Part shown: piece by piece, positions 27,520-56,924 of the stretch
Layout: each line of letters begins with the position of its first letter
Numbering within the stretch: the stretch's first letter is position 1
Assembly (NCBI RefSeq): GCF_006438955.1
Contig: NZ_RCZK01000006.1
Span: 1-64,000, forward strand
Direction of reading: 5' to 3'
DNA length: 64,000 nt
Origin: Sphingomonas oligophenolica
GTDB lineage: Bacteria > Pseudomonadota > Alphaproteobacteria > Sphingomonadales > Sphingomonadaceae
Program-made: the position numbers and the translations under genes
Notes under the pieces: model-generated
Databases searched by the model: none
Seen by the model: only the letters and a program-made list of their open reading frames with translations
Told to the model about the DNA's origin: nothing

Positions 27520-27594
27520 TGGGGCGTAGCCAAGTGGTAAGGCAGCGGCTTTTGATGCCGCGTACCGCAGGTTCGAATCCTGCCGCCCCAGCCA
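27520..27594 (+). tRNA. tRNA-Gln (anticodon TTG)
   Basis: Acceptor arms TGGGGCG (27520-27526) and CGCCCCA pair fully; the anticodon stem GCGGC/GCCGC encloses the loop TTTTGAT with anticodon TTG; the T arm contains GGTTCGAATCC. The CCA end is encoded at 27592-27594. A -10-like TATAAG lies 14 bases before the 5' end, inside a GGCGGC-GCCGCC inverted repeat. Confidence 0.97.
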
Positions 27595-27723
27595 ATCCCG
27601 GTACCTGCTTAACGTACTGACCGAAGCCAATCGGCCCAGCCGGGCGACGGCAACGTCGCTCGCGCGCTGCCCAACAGCGGTTGATGCGTGGCGCGCACGT
27701 GGTAGGCGCGCTTGGCGCAGTCT

Positions 27724-28884
27724 GTGAAACCCTGCCTGATAAACGAAGGATCGAACATTCGACAGATCGCCGCCTTGCCCTATCGACTGGATGGGGGTCT
27801 CGACGATGTTGGGGTGCAGATCATGCTCGTCACGTCGCGCGGGACGGGTCGCTGGGTCATCCCCAAGGGTAATATCGATGCCGGGCTGAGCCCGCATAGC
27901 GCCGCCGCGATCGAGGCGCAGGAAGAGGCGGGGGTGCTGGGCGCCCTGTGTCCTAGTCCGCTCGGCTCGTATCGCTACCGCAAGCTGCGGCGCAGCGGCG
28001 CATCGTTGATGGTCGATGTCGATGTTTTTCCGCTGGCGGTGAACGATGTGCTTCCCGCCTGGAAGGAACAGGGGCAAAGGGATCGGCGCTGGTTTGCACT
28101 GGCCGATGCGGCGGATGCGGTCGACGAACCGGACCTGCGGGACCTGATGCGGTCCTTCGCACCGTCCGAGTTTCGTGCGGCGGTCAGCCGTGGGGGGATG
28201 CTGGGTACAGTCGCGCAACGATCGGGGTTAGGTTCAATGTTCGGATGGTTTCAGCGGCTGTTGCCGCGCACAGGCAATTTCTTCGAGTTGTTCGAAGCGC
28301 ACGCCGCGACGGTGCTCGCGGGCGCGGAAGCGACCGCCCGGCTGCTCGGCGAGACCGGCGATGGCGCCAAGGAGCATATTCGCGAGATCATCGAGCGCGA
28401 GCATGACGCCGACGACATCACCCGCCAGGTGCTCCAGTCGGTGCGCAAGACCTTCCTGACGCCGTTCGACCGCGGCGCGATCACCGCGCTGATCGGGTCG
28501 CTCGACGATACGATCGACGAGATGCAGGCCGCCGCGGCCGCGATCGACTTGTATGAGATTACCGACTTCGCGCCCGAGATGCGCGACATGGCCGCGATCA
28601 TCGTCGATGCCGCGCGGCTCGCGGCGGAGGCAATGCCGTTGCTGCGCGATATTGGTCGCAACGGCGAGCGGCTCCACGAATTGACCGAGCGGCTGATCCG
28701 GATCGAAGGCCATGCCGACGAGATCCATGCGGCCGGATTGAAGCGATCGCTCCAGCTATATGGGCGCACCGATACGCTGCGGTTCGTGACCGAGCGCGAA
28801 ATCTACAAGCATCTCGAACGGATCGTCGATGCGTTCGAGGATGTCGCCGACCAGGTCGACGGCATCGTCATCGATCACGCCTGA
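27724..28884 (+). CDS. NUDIX hydrolase fused to DUF47/PhoU-like protein
   Basis: One open frame holds two domains. Residues about 15-150 are NUDIX: RWVIPKG and the box G-NIDAG-L-SPHSAAA-IEA-Q-EE-A-GV, where the usual first Glu is Leu and the Arg is Ile while the metal-binding EE remains. From MFGWFQRLLPRTGNFFELFE (internal ATG 28237) to the end is a full DUF47/PhoU-like helical domain, the known accessory of PiT phosphate transporters. A separate DUF47 start at 28237 is possible but has no good ribosome site. The N-terminal start is unclear: TTG 27712, GTG 27724, or ATT 27757, which alone has a well-spaced GAAGGA. A PiT gene follows after 11 bases, so the pair likely handles phosphate. Confidence 0.82.
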   Translation: MKPCLINEGSNIRQIAALPYRLDGGLDDVGVQIMLVTSRGTGRWVIPKGNIDAGLSPHSAAAIEAQEEAGVLGALCPSPLGSYRYRKLRRSGASLMVDVDVFPLAVNDVLPAWKEQGQRDRRWFALADAADAVDEPDLRDLMRSFAPSEFRAAVSRGGMLGTVAQRSGLGSMFGWFQRLLPRTGNFFELFEAHAATVLAGAEATARLLGETGDGAKEHIREIIEREHDADDITRQVLQSVRKTFLTPFDRGAITALIGSLDDTIDEMQAAAAAIDLYEITDFAPEMRDMAAIIVDAARLAAEAMPLLRDIGRNGERLHELTERLIRIEGHADEIHAAGLKRSLQLYGRTDTLRFVTEREIYKHLERIVDAFEDVADQVDGIVIDHA

Positions 28885-28895
28885 CGCGCCGCACG

Positions 28896-29909
28896 ATGCA
28901 CCACCTTGCCCTTCCGCTGCTCGTCGCGCTGATCGCGGTCGCGCTGGCGTTCGATTATCTCAACGGCCTCCACGATGCGGCGAATTCAATCGCGACGGTG
29001 GTGTCGACGCGGCTGCTGACGCCGGTTCGCGCGGTCGGTTTTGCCGCCTTCTTCAACTTTGCGGCGTATTTTCTCACCCTCGCTTTCCCGAGCCTGCATG
29101 CGGTCGCAGCGACCATCGGCAAGGGTCTGGTCGACGAGAATGTCATCACCCCCGCGGTGATCTTCGGCGCACTGGGCGGCGCGATGGCGTGGAACGTCAT
29201 CACCTGGATGCGCGGGATTCCCTCATCATCGAGCCATGCGCTGATCGGGGGATTGATCGGCGCCGGGGTCGCGCATGTCGGGCTCAGCGGCATCAAATGG
29301 GTGGGTCTCAACAAGACGCTGATTGCGATCGTGCTGTCGCCGATGCTCGGGATGTTCCTGGCGATGCTGGTGATGCTGGCGTCGAGCTGGGCGTTTCGCC
29401 GCGCGACCGCCTATCAGGCCGAACGCACGTTCCGATCGCTCCACCTGGTGTCGTCTGCGGCCTATTCGCTCAGCCACGGGCTGAACGATGCGCAGAAGAC
29501 GATGGGGATCATCACCGTCCTCCTCTATTCGACGGGGCGCCTCACTGGCCCGTTCGCGGTGCCCCATTGGGTGGCAATCAGTTGCTATATCGCGATCGCG
29601 CTCGGCACGATGACCGGGGGATGGAAGATCATCGAGACGATGGGATCGCGGATCACCAAGCTGTCGCAGCACCAGGGTTTCAGCTCGTCCCTGGCGGGGT
29701 CGGTCGTGCTGTTCGGTGCCTCATTGCTCGGCATCCCGGTGTCGACCACGCATACGATCACCGGCGCGATCATCGGCGCGGGTACCGCGCGCCGCGCGTC
29801 GGCGGTCCGTTGGGGGGTCGCGCGCGGCGTCGTGATCGCGTGGCTCATCACGATCCCGGCGTCCGCGCTCATCGGTGCCGCCTGCTACGCGCTGACGCTG
29901 CTGTTCTGA
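28896..29909 (+). CDS. PiT-family inorganic phosphate transporter
   Basis: Inner-membrane low-affinity phosphate permease of 337 residues and about ten membrane segments. The two inverted family motifs are visible: FDYLNGLHDAANSIATVVST near the N-terminus and SLSHGLNDAQKTMGIIT in the second half; GIPSSSSHALIGG and GIPVSTTHTITGAIIGAG are the conserved helix-hairpin signatures. It follows the NUDIX-DUF47 gene, its usual partner type. This is the short PiT form; a much longer one is at 55198-56835. Confidence 0.94.
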   Translation: MHHLALPLLVALIAVALAFDYLNGLHDAANSIATVVSTRLLTPVRAVGFAAFFNFAAYFLTLAFPSLHAVAATIGKGLVDENVITPAVIFGALGGAMAWNVITWMRGIPSSSSHALIGGLIGAGVAHVGLSGIKWVGLNKTLIAIVLSPMLGMFLAMLVMLASSWAFRRATAYQAERTFRSLHLVSSAAYSLSHGLNDAQKTMGIITVLLYSTGRLTGPFAVPHWVAISCYIAIALGTMTGGWKIIETMGSRITKLSQHQGFSSSLAGSVVLFGASLLGIPVSTTHTITGAIIGAGTARRASAVRWGVARGVVIAWLITIPASALIGAACYALTLLF

Positions 29910-55197: not shown

Positions 55198-56835
55198 TCA
55201 AATCCCCGCGGCGCGAACCACGGCCAGCAGCACCCAGTACAACCCGCCCGACAACAGCATCGCGGCGGGAAGCGTCAGCAGCCACGCCAGCGCCATGTGG
55301 AACATGGTGCGGCGCTGGAGCCCCGCGCCGTTGGCGACCGCCGCGCCCGCGACGCCCGAGGTCAGGATCTGCGTGGTCGATACCGGCAAGCCCAGCCGTT
55401 CGGCGATCAGGATCATCGCCGCCGCGGTCAATTCGGCCGATGCGCCCATGCCATAGGTCAGGTGGGTCTTCCCGATCCGTTCACCGACGGTGACGACGAT
55501 CCGCTTCCACCCCACCATCGTGCCGAGCCCCATCGCCAGCGCGACCGTGATCTTGACCCACAGCGGGATGAATCGCGTACCCTGTTGCAGCTGTCCGGAA
55601 TACGCCTTCAACGCCGCGGTCTCGGGCGCGGTCAAGGTCGCCTTCGCGGTGTCGTTCGCCAGCATCAGCTTGGTCGTGTCGAGCACCAGATACATGTCGT
55701 TGCGCAGGTTGGGGGTCGCCGCCGCGGGCACCTTGCTCAGCGCGCCATAACCACCGATTCGCTGGCCGAGGTCGTTCGAAATCGCCGCCAGCCCGCCGAA
55801 TACGGCTGGGGTCGCGACCCGCTTGGTCTGGAGCGCGCGGGTCACGGTCGTCCGTGCCGCGGCGAGATTCGCAGGCGCCGTCCCGTGCGCCGCGAAGGCG
55901 GAGACCGCGGCGTTCGCGGTCTGGACAAAGGCGGGGGTCGCGCTGTCGGGGACGGTGCGGTTGAGCGCATAGGCGGTGGGTGCGCAGCCGATCAAGATCA
56001 GCATGATCAGCCCCATCCCCTTCTGCCCGTCGTTGCCGCCATGCGCGAAGCTCACCGCGGTGCAGGTGAAGATCAGCAGCGCACGGATGCCCTTGGGCGG
56101 CGGCGCGTCGGTGGCGGGCTCGCGGTACAGCTTGGGATCGCGGATCAGCTTCTTCATCGTGTACAGCAGCAGCAGCGCGCCGATGAAACCGAGTACGGGT
56201 GCCATCAGCAGCCCGCTCAGCACCTTCTCCGCCTGGCCCCATTCGACCCCCGCGGTGCCGCTGGCGCCGTTGATCAGCTGGTTGGCGAGTCCCACCCCCA
56301 GGATCGACCCGATCAGCGCGTGGCTCGACGAATTGGGAATCCCGACATACCAGGTCGCGAGATTCCACAGCACCGCCGCGATCAGCAACGCGAAGATCAT
56401 CGCGAACCCGGCAGCGCTGCCGATGTGCAGGATCAGGTCGACCGGCAACAACGTGATGATCGAATAGGCGACCGCGCCGCTCGAGAACATCACGCCCGCG
56501 AAATTCCACACCCCCGACCACACCACCGCGACCACCGGCGACATCGAATTGGTGTAGATCACGGTCGCGACCGCGTTGGCGGTGTCGTGGAAGCCGTTGA
56601 CGAATTCGAACCCCAGCGCGATCACCAGCGCCAGCCCGAGGAACAGGAACACCCCCGTCGCCATCTGTTCGCCGACCATCGCGGTGTCGCTCGCGATGCT
56701 GATTCCGGCATAGCCGAGCCCGCCGATCATCAGCGCCAGAAACGCCCATCGCCCCGCGGGATGCACCGCGCCATCGAGCCGAGGGCCACGCGCAGGCGAT
56801 AGCGATTCGCTGCCTGTCAAAGCTGTGGATGCCAT
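55198..56835 (-). CDS. PiT-family inorganic phosphate transporter, long form
   Basis: Inner-membrane permease of 545 residues. The two PiT motifs are FEFVNGFHDTANAVATVIYT and SFAHGGNDGQKGMGLIM, plus GIPNSSSHALIGSILGVG and GLPVSTTQILTSGVAGAAVA. A hydrophilic insert of about 130 residues (from RTVPDSATPAF to GTRFIPLW) separates the second motif from the last helices, as in the PitA-like long subgroup. ATG 56835 is chosen for ribosome-site spacing; ATG 56841 is also possible. No PhoU-like partner adjoins it, unlike the PiT gene at 28896. Confidence 0.93.
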   Translation of the reverse strand: MASTALTGSESLSPARGPRLDGAVHPAGRWAFLALMIGGLGYAGISIASDTAMVGEQMATGVFLFLGLALVIALGFEFVNGFHDTANAVATVIYTNSMSPVVAVVWSGVWNFAGVMFSSGAVAYSIITLLPVDLILHIGSAAGFAMIFALLIAAVLWNLATWYVGIPNSSSHALIGSILGVGLANQLINGASGTAGVEWGQAEKVLSGLLMAPVLGFIGALLLLYTMKKLIRDPKLYREPATDAPPPKGIRALLIFTCTAVSFAHGGNDGQKGMGLIMLILIGCAPTAYALNRTVPDSATPAFVQTANAAVSAFAAHGTAPANLAAARTTVTRALQTKRVATPAVFGGLAAISNDLGQRIGGYGALSKVPAAATPNLRNDMYLVLDTTKLMLANDTAKATLTAPETAALKAYSGQLQQGTRFIPLWVKITVALAMGLGTMVGWKRIVVTVGERIGKTHLTYGMGASAELTAAAMILIAERLGLPVSTTQILTSGVAGAAVANGAGLQRRTMFHMALAWLLTLPAAMLLSGGLYWVLLAVVRAAGI

Positions 56836-56924
56836 GCGCATCGCTCTCGCGGATTTACGTGACGGTTTCGTGACAGCGGGCCGCGCGCTTGCCCCCCGCA
56901 CTCGCGTTCCCTACCTGTTCACCG

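Follow-up and report, generated by a model that had tools for sequence, protein, structure and literature searches.

The gene that in Sphingomonas oligophenolica joins a NUDIX domain to DUF47 (a domain that we take to be PhoU-like) is a true and old fusion, conserved across sphingomonad genera beside a PiT-type phosphate transporter gene, and comparison of related loci strongly indicates two start sites for its translation. From this one gene there would probably come a rationed NUDIX-PitR protein, begun at a weak AUU or AUC codon, and a separate PitR, begun at an internal AUG (PitR being the name given to the DUF47 protein in Staphylococcus aureus; PMC13170248). It is this probable two-start design, with its conserved AUU/AUC codon, that forms the new point of our study; our searches of open-access literature, by titles and the beginnings of abstracts, brought up no description of a NUDIX-DUF47 fusion or of its starts.

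Within the window, by which we mean the whole stretch of 64,000 nucleotides that was analysed (contig NZ_RCZK01000006.1, positions 1 to 64,000, from a host genome of 3,089,412 bases in 47 contigs), a single frame runs on the forward strand over 27712..28884, with an in-frame TTG at 27712, an in-frame GTG at 27724 and the stop TGA at 28882-28884. The frame matches PF00293 (NUDIX) with 32.1 bits (cut-off 21.1) over residues 39-147, and PF01865 (DUF47/PhoU_div) with 121.3 bits (cut-off 24.4) over residues 186-387; the next open reading frame on the same strand matches PF01384 (PHO4). The preliminary description of this locus, made from the letters of the window, had reported one uninterrupted NUDIX-DUF47 frame with PiT beginning 11 bases after its stop, and this is borne out both by these domain matches and by the open frame of the related loci described below. 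When the whole genome was searched with PF01865 there was one match only, the fused gene itself. A second PiT-type transporter lies in the window on the minus strand, at 55249-56598 (PF01384, 258.8 bits; open reading frame 55198..56901). The features of the locus, with the evidence for each, are as follows:

27520..27594, plus strand: tRNA-Gln (TTG), 5′ of the fused gene (ARAGORN)
27745..27750, plus strand: Shine-Dalgarno-like GAAGGA, 6 nt ahead of the proposed ATT start (sequence; Shine-Dalgarno energy over relatives)
27757..27759, plus strand: proposed non-canonical start ATT of the long form, NUDIX-DUF47 (onset of conservation; residues 2-12 predicted as first strand)
27757..28881, plus strand: long form, 375 codons, before the stop at 28882-28884 (domain matches, alignment, predicted structure)
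27868..27936, plus strand: NUDIX box, residues 38-60, retaining E53, E56 and E57; the family varies at positions 44 and 52 (alignment)
28224..28227, plus strand: G-rich Shine-Dalgarno-like core (codon GGG, then TTA) ahead of the internal start (sequence; codon shift in relatives)
28237..28239, plus strand: ATG proposed to open the short form, which would be DUF47/PitR by itself and run for 215 codons to 28881 (conservation, low local RNA structure)
28896..29909, plus strand: PiT-type phosphate transporter (PF01384, 297.9 bits)

Counted from the proposed ATT, the long form would be laid out as a NUDIX domain at about residues 1-138, a low-confidence linker at 139-172 and DUF47/PitR at about 161-375.

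The fusion is not peculiar to the window. We compared 107 distinct fused loci, the window and 106 others whose proteins are 60-81% identical to that of the window, after dropping one repeat of the window (L082) and three protein duplicates (L029, L031 and L042, of L083, L084 and L095); all 107 keep the fused frame free of stops. A PiT gene follows on the same strand in 105 of them, within 40 nt in 101, and in the other two (L006 and L056) the sequence ends some 75 and 110 bases past the match. These loci are related, top-ranked matches, so that the counts are not independent and favour full-length fusions; one of the six peptide patterns used to find loci also held the internal methionine (GSMFGWFQ), which may have brought in a small bias. 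Among the 52 aligned sequences (window included) every one matched PF01865 at E 0.001 or better.

The order, class and genus loci, and the family genomes, were found by searches with the whole protein, and the window genome is included in each of the counts that follow. One full-length, open fused match was found in 55 of 199 family genomes, and such matches were found in 19 of 147 order genomes and in 4 of 289 class genomes, where the three besides the window genome come from one other family (f46). According to the preliminary description a stop codon or separate genes in close relatives would speak against the fusion: no stop interrupts it in the compared loci and 37 of 61 genus genomes carry it full-length and open, while 14 match in the DUF47 half alone, a part of the result that does lean the other way and from which it follows that the NUDIX half is dispensable. 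The rest of the genus has a weak match to the NUDIX part only (1 genome) or no match (9). In two genus members (L194 and L203, from G612 and G608) one TGA falls within the match to the fused protein, with DUF47 and PiT staying open; in both, the NUDIX half appears to have been lost recently.

Outside the fused loci the same parts were searched for in 32 fetched stretches. NUDIX, DUF47 and PiT stand there as three neighbouring genes, in that order, at L182 and L189; the order DUF47-PiT-NUDIX occurs at L183, L184 and L185; and at L186 the NUDIX gene is divergent from DUF47-PiT. DUF47-PiT without a NUDIX match makes up 25 of the 32 (L187 and L190-L213), and L188 is a lone NUDIX gene in the same genome as L187. 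In the class survey three further genomes (G485, G445 and G577) match both parts, by their coordinates not as close neighbours, the match in G577 being at a contig end. This neighbourhood, recurring in some other alphaproteobacteria, supports a functional tie between NUDIX, DUF47 and PiT that is independent of the fusion. The preliminary description had suggested that the NUDIX half ties phosphate uptake to a nucleotide or polyphosphate pool: the conserved fusion beside PiT, and the separate neighbours elsewhere, lend this partial support. The likely AUU/AUC start and the conserved internal start proposed here had been missed.

Conservation in the family sets in at the ATT at 27757, behind the purine-rich GAAGGA. 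At this site the 107 distinct loci have ATT (44), ATC (23), ATA (2), ATG (27), TTG (5), GTG (2) or some other codon (4), with three alignment slips, seen by eye, left as counted (L057, entered as TTG, where an ATG stands three codons downstream; L037, with ATT one codon upstream; and L067, with ATG at the next codon downstream); a further 26 distinct proteins, from the order, class and genus surveys, have ATT in 21 and ATC in 5. Throughout the 69 ATT/ATC/ATA loci the amino acids of codons 2 to 10 are conserved although the third bases vary, codon 2 being arginine in 68 of the 69 by way of five different codons; codons -1 to -12 are unconserved save for the purine-rich site. The Shine-Dalgarno signal peaks in the 8-mer that starts 14 nt ahead of the start codon, and the mean best energy at these starts is -5.63 (n=69), compared with -3.09 at the remaining in-frame ATGs, -3.03 at random codons and 0.13 ahead of Leu7, as computed with a generic anti-Shine-Dalgarno sequence. 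Canonical starts of the same site (n=34) have a fainter signal that is also less sharply placed (-4.36).

If the gene were a plain fusion, making the long protein only, translation would begin at a GTG or TTG further upstream, and the window by itself allows this, since GTG 27724 and TTG 27712 both lie in frame ahead of the conserved block. Some canonical codon is also present upstream in 33 of 68 ATT/ATC/ATA loci (one of the 69 ran off its DNA and was excluded from this count), but the conserved block starts at codon 1, and 46 of 94 such loci (35/68 plus 11/26) have no in-frame ATG, GTG or TTG upstream at all. A canonical codon within six codons upstream is found in only 6 of the 69, and in L094 an upstream stop stands one codon from the start site. 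In L090 and both ATA loci an ATG stands two codons upstream and is probably the start; relatives with a separate NUDIX gene have a canonical codon upstream of the aligned position in all 26 rows. For the family, then, the alignment shows the marks of a non-canonical start; the window alone is not decisive, and it is the relatives that carry the case. The fused gene probably starts at ATT 27757, and the start that the preliminary description had taken, GTG 27724, is probably wrong.

A quick tree calls for at least 15 switches between ATT and ATC and at least 3 exchanges between ATT/ATC/ATA and canonical codons. ATG, which is one substitution away, appears once only (L027) in the main clade of 60. 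T/C changes are the easier kind of change, and G at nearby fourfold third positions is found in 18 of 69 loci at Pro8 and in only 4 of 69 at Ala5. Weak initiation is not needed everywhere, because most loci of the Sphingopyxis-type clade have ATG at this site.

Two other candidates in this region were set aside. Leu7 is TTG in 37 of the 69 ATT/ATC/ATA loci (and CTT in 13, CTG in 10, TTA in 5, CTC in 3 and TTT in 1), so that most of the loci lacking TTG have a non-start codon there; as a start it would be without a Shine-Dalgarno signal and would cut the first predicted strand. A general Pho box is not claimed, the window reaching 12 as against 12.16 for its simple shuffles. CTGTCAT-N4-CTGTCAT-like sites at 20 of 22 or better occur in 22 of the 107 loci, 21 of those 22 being loci of the canonical-start type; strong Pho-box-like repeats (CTGTCAT-N4-TTGTCAT), absent in the window, are found about 85 nt before the start in Sphingopyxis-type loci (for example L051 and L078).

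The PiT genes of the same loci served as a control for the first start: in 103 of 105 the start is canonical or has a canonical codon no more than six codons away (ATG 78, GTG 2, canonical within six codons 23, ATT 1, another codon 1). A second intended control, ilvE, was present in one locus only and was dropped. The infC gene encodes initiation factor IF3 and is given with the start AUU in E. coli (PMC9410913), ATC in Streptomyces (PMC5472188) and AUA in S. aureus (PMC13009471). In the host, infC (L247, G000:C5:40700-41700) appears to start with ATA, which lies behind TAAGGAG with a stop just upstream and with ATGs four codons later. In 30 family loci a script picked ATA in 20, ATC in 5 and ATG in 5, where six picks (the five ATG and one ATC) are wrong, since inspection by eye shows an ATA or ATC upstream of them; several of these loci also have canonical codons further upstream. 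The family infC loci look like that of the host, with ATA or ATC.

The second proposed start is the ATG at 28237, at the PitR boundary, which is present in 131 of 133 distinct fused loci (105/107 plus 26/26); in the two exceptions, L108 and L110, the ATG stands two codons upstream. A kept internal methionine is on its own no proof of a start, because two other methionine columns are also invariant in the fused proteins, and to this extent the plain fusion, for which the internal ATG is a mere methionine, is served as well. The codon bias just before it and the openness of the RNA are stronger signs of an internal start than the conservation of the methionine. The Shine-Dalgarno site is spelled with rare codons: at the fourth codon ahead of the ATG arginine is the rare AGG in 20 of 22 cases, compared with 55 of 3734 in the rest of the genes, and glycine is GGG or GGA in 56 of 56, compared with 564 of 2527 (Fisher values for this shift ignore kinship). 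The folding energy over 41 nt is -5.96 kcal/mol at the internal ATG, -6.29 at the ATT/ATC/ATA starts and -7.88 at the canonical starts of the same gene, as against -11.70 at 1421 random codons. Both the codon shift and the open RNA speak against a plain fusion, which, together with the evidence at the first start, makes that reading very unlikely. The best Shine-Dalgarno energy at the internal ATG averages -5.90, with single loci that are weak (0.1 in L176).

DUF47 genes that lack the NUDIX half begin at this very position. Of the 25 DUF47-PiT loci with no NUDIX match, 22 have ATG as the aligned codon, the exceptions being L190 and L191, with ATG one codon upstream, and L211, with GTG; over all 31 DUF47 rows only L184 (TTG) and L211 are without an ATG within one codon. 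One could suppose that NUDIX and DUF47 were once separate genes, of which the internal ATG with its Shine-Dalgarno site is a fossil, the long form alone being made today, and the two loci at which separate NUDIX, DUF47 and PiT genes stand in the same order as the fused parts agree with such an origin. Yet the linker ahead of the ATG (residues 131-160) is the least conserved part of the protein, with a mean share of the commonest residue of 0.55 as compared with 0.76 before it and 0.81 after it, and the ATG persists beyond this linker across genera, even the two exceptions having one close by; we regard a fossil start as quite unlikely. With the internal start taken as a working one, a short DUF47 product is to be expected beside the fused one, so that the earlier proposal to count two distinct proteins, with no fused product, against the fusion needs rewording.

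Turning to the NUDIX half, the box of the window reads G-x5-L-x7-I-E-A-Q-E-E-A-G-V, with the two changes from the full consensus GX5EX7REUXEEXGU (Glu to Leu and Arg to Ile) just as the preliminary description gave them, and with the other three glutamates kept. These changes are not special to this protein: positions 44 and 52 vary across the 107 fused sequences, and among 26 rows of relatives with a separate NUDIX gene only one has Glu at 44 and eight have Arg at 52 (in this sample L134 and L186 are the same locus). NUDIX-box glutamates of the E53, E56 and E57 type bind metal. E53 and E57 are invariant in the fused sequences, and at position 56 two have Asp and the other 105 Glu; all three glutamates are found in 24 of the 26 rows of separate-NUDIX relatives.

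These patterns bear on whether the NUDIX half is an enzyme. Both starts could be real and the NUDIX half none the less have lost its enzymatic action, sensing or binding some ligand rich in phosphate and telling PitR when to close or open PiT; non-enzymatic Nudix proteins are described (PMC8064635), and the departures from consensus at 44 and 52 would suit such a role. The near-complete retention of the three box glutamates argues against it, as does the finding that separate-NUDIX relatives vary at the same two positions, and we consider a purely sensory NUDIX half unlikely.

For the enzyme that we prefer, the nearest solved relatives are DIPP/DDP1 and bacterial Ap4A and Ap6A hydrolases (9t4k, 2q9p, 3i7u and 1vc8), none of which shares with it the fusion to PitR. 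By sequence the closest solved structure is human DIPP1 (E 1.2e-6), followed by other DIPPs; further matches are Aquifex Ap4A hydrolase (4.2e-4) and Thermus Ndx1 (0.0043), presumably an Ap6A hydrolase. The structure of the long form, predicted with an alignment of 52 sequences (51 of the 107 distinct ones, chosen for spread, besides the window), has a mean pLDDT of 83.6 and a pTM of 0.58. Its first strand is formed by residues 2-12, and residues 139-172 are of low confidence, so that the model does not fix how the two domains sit with respect to one another. The predicted NUDIX fold matches DIPP1 (2q9p, E 3.2e-7), which is among the nearest, and Ap4A hydrolases, the match to human DIPPs being at about 26-28% identity. 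The predicted DUF47 part matches the PhoU-like BT4638 protein (3l39) with E 7.2e-10 and a TM-score of 0.93 normalised to 3l39 (sequence E 2.9e-15), a match that covers the DUF47 half only.

The NUDIX half is thus DIPP-like in the sense of nearness in sequence and predicted fold only. Polyphosphate, inositol pyrophosphates and Ap5A/Ap6A are all substrates of yeast DDP1 (PMC8064635). The substrates guessed at in the preliminary description (polyphosphate, Ap4A or diphosphoinositol compounds) fit these nearest relatives, and polyphosphate is a plausible substrate because the host genome encodes a PhoU protein and contains a match to polyphosphate kinase.

The PitR half finds its closest known counterpart in the PitR/PitA pair of S. 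aureus, in which accessory regulators of phosphate homeostasis, PitR among them, act with a cognate transporter; it has the same DUF47 domain and an adjacent PiT (PMC13170248). That study took single-domain PF01865 proteins, and the word nudix is absent from its main text, whereas the gene described here carries an N-terminal NUDIX domain and a proposed second start; the long form departs from the single-domain PitR architecture and the proposed short form would have it. As for the first start, infC, pcnB (AUU), cvfC1 (AUU) and ccpN (AUA) likewise begin at AUU, AUC or AUA, and IF3 limits such starts (PMC9410913, PMC5472188, PMC13009471). In S. aureus non-canonical starts go with an extended Shine-Dalgarno site and, in poor medium, yield roughly 10% of what AUG gives (PMC13009471). 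Unlike those genes, the fused gene would combine a weak start for a long form with an internal AUG for a short form in the same frame. Nearer in design is sigR of Streptomyces, a gene with isoforms whose GTC start is repressed by IF3 and sets the dose, or stoichiometry, of one partner of a regulatory pair (PMC5472188); there it is the short isoform that has the non-canonical start and here the long form, and the proteins and the pathway are different. By analogy with the sigR GTC, an AUU/AUC start would ration the enzyme-bearing form.

We propose a DIPP-like NUDIX-PitR fusion that is read from two starts and supplies a dosed enzyme at PiT, a model that, taken whole, we hold with moderate confidence. 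Ribosomes starting at the weak AUU/AUC would make NUDIX-PitR, and those starting at the internal AUG, with its own Shine-Dalgarno sequence, would make PitR alone; the weak start would keep the enzyme-bearing form scarce. The long form would probably depend on IF3, whose own gene here is apparently non-canonical too. Both forms may assemble at PiT via the PitR half, where a limited dose of NUDIX beside the transporter could trim some compound rich in phosphate, most likely polyphosphate or a dinucleoside polyphosphate, and this trimming may adjust phosphate uptake or Pho signalling, in a direction that we can only infer. It is a further, and in our estimate doubtful, step to suggest that the AUU/AUC start lets IF3, or the state of translation initiation, set a polyphosphate- or nucleotide-cleaving activity on the transporter, which would be a bacterial parallel to the control of phosphate transport by DIPP-type enzymes and phosphate-rich messengers in eukaryotes.

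Very few non-canonical starts of bacteria have been characterised by experiment (PMC5472188). A gene caller limited to ATG, GTG and TTG would, if our reading is true, misplace the start of the fused gene. The clade-wide AUU/AUC codon, with its conserved internal start, would then be a clear case of one gene dosing two forms of a regulator, and PitR would in these sphingomonads gain an enzymatic arm.
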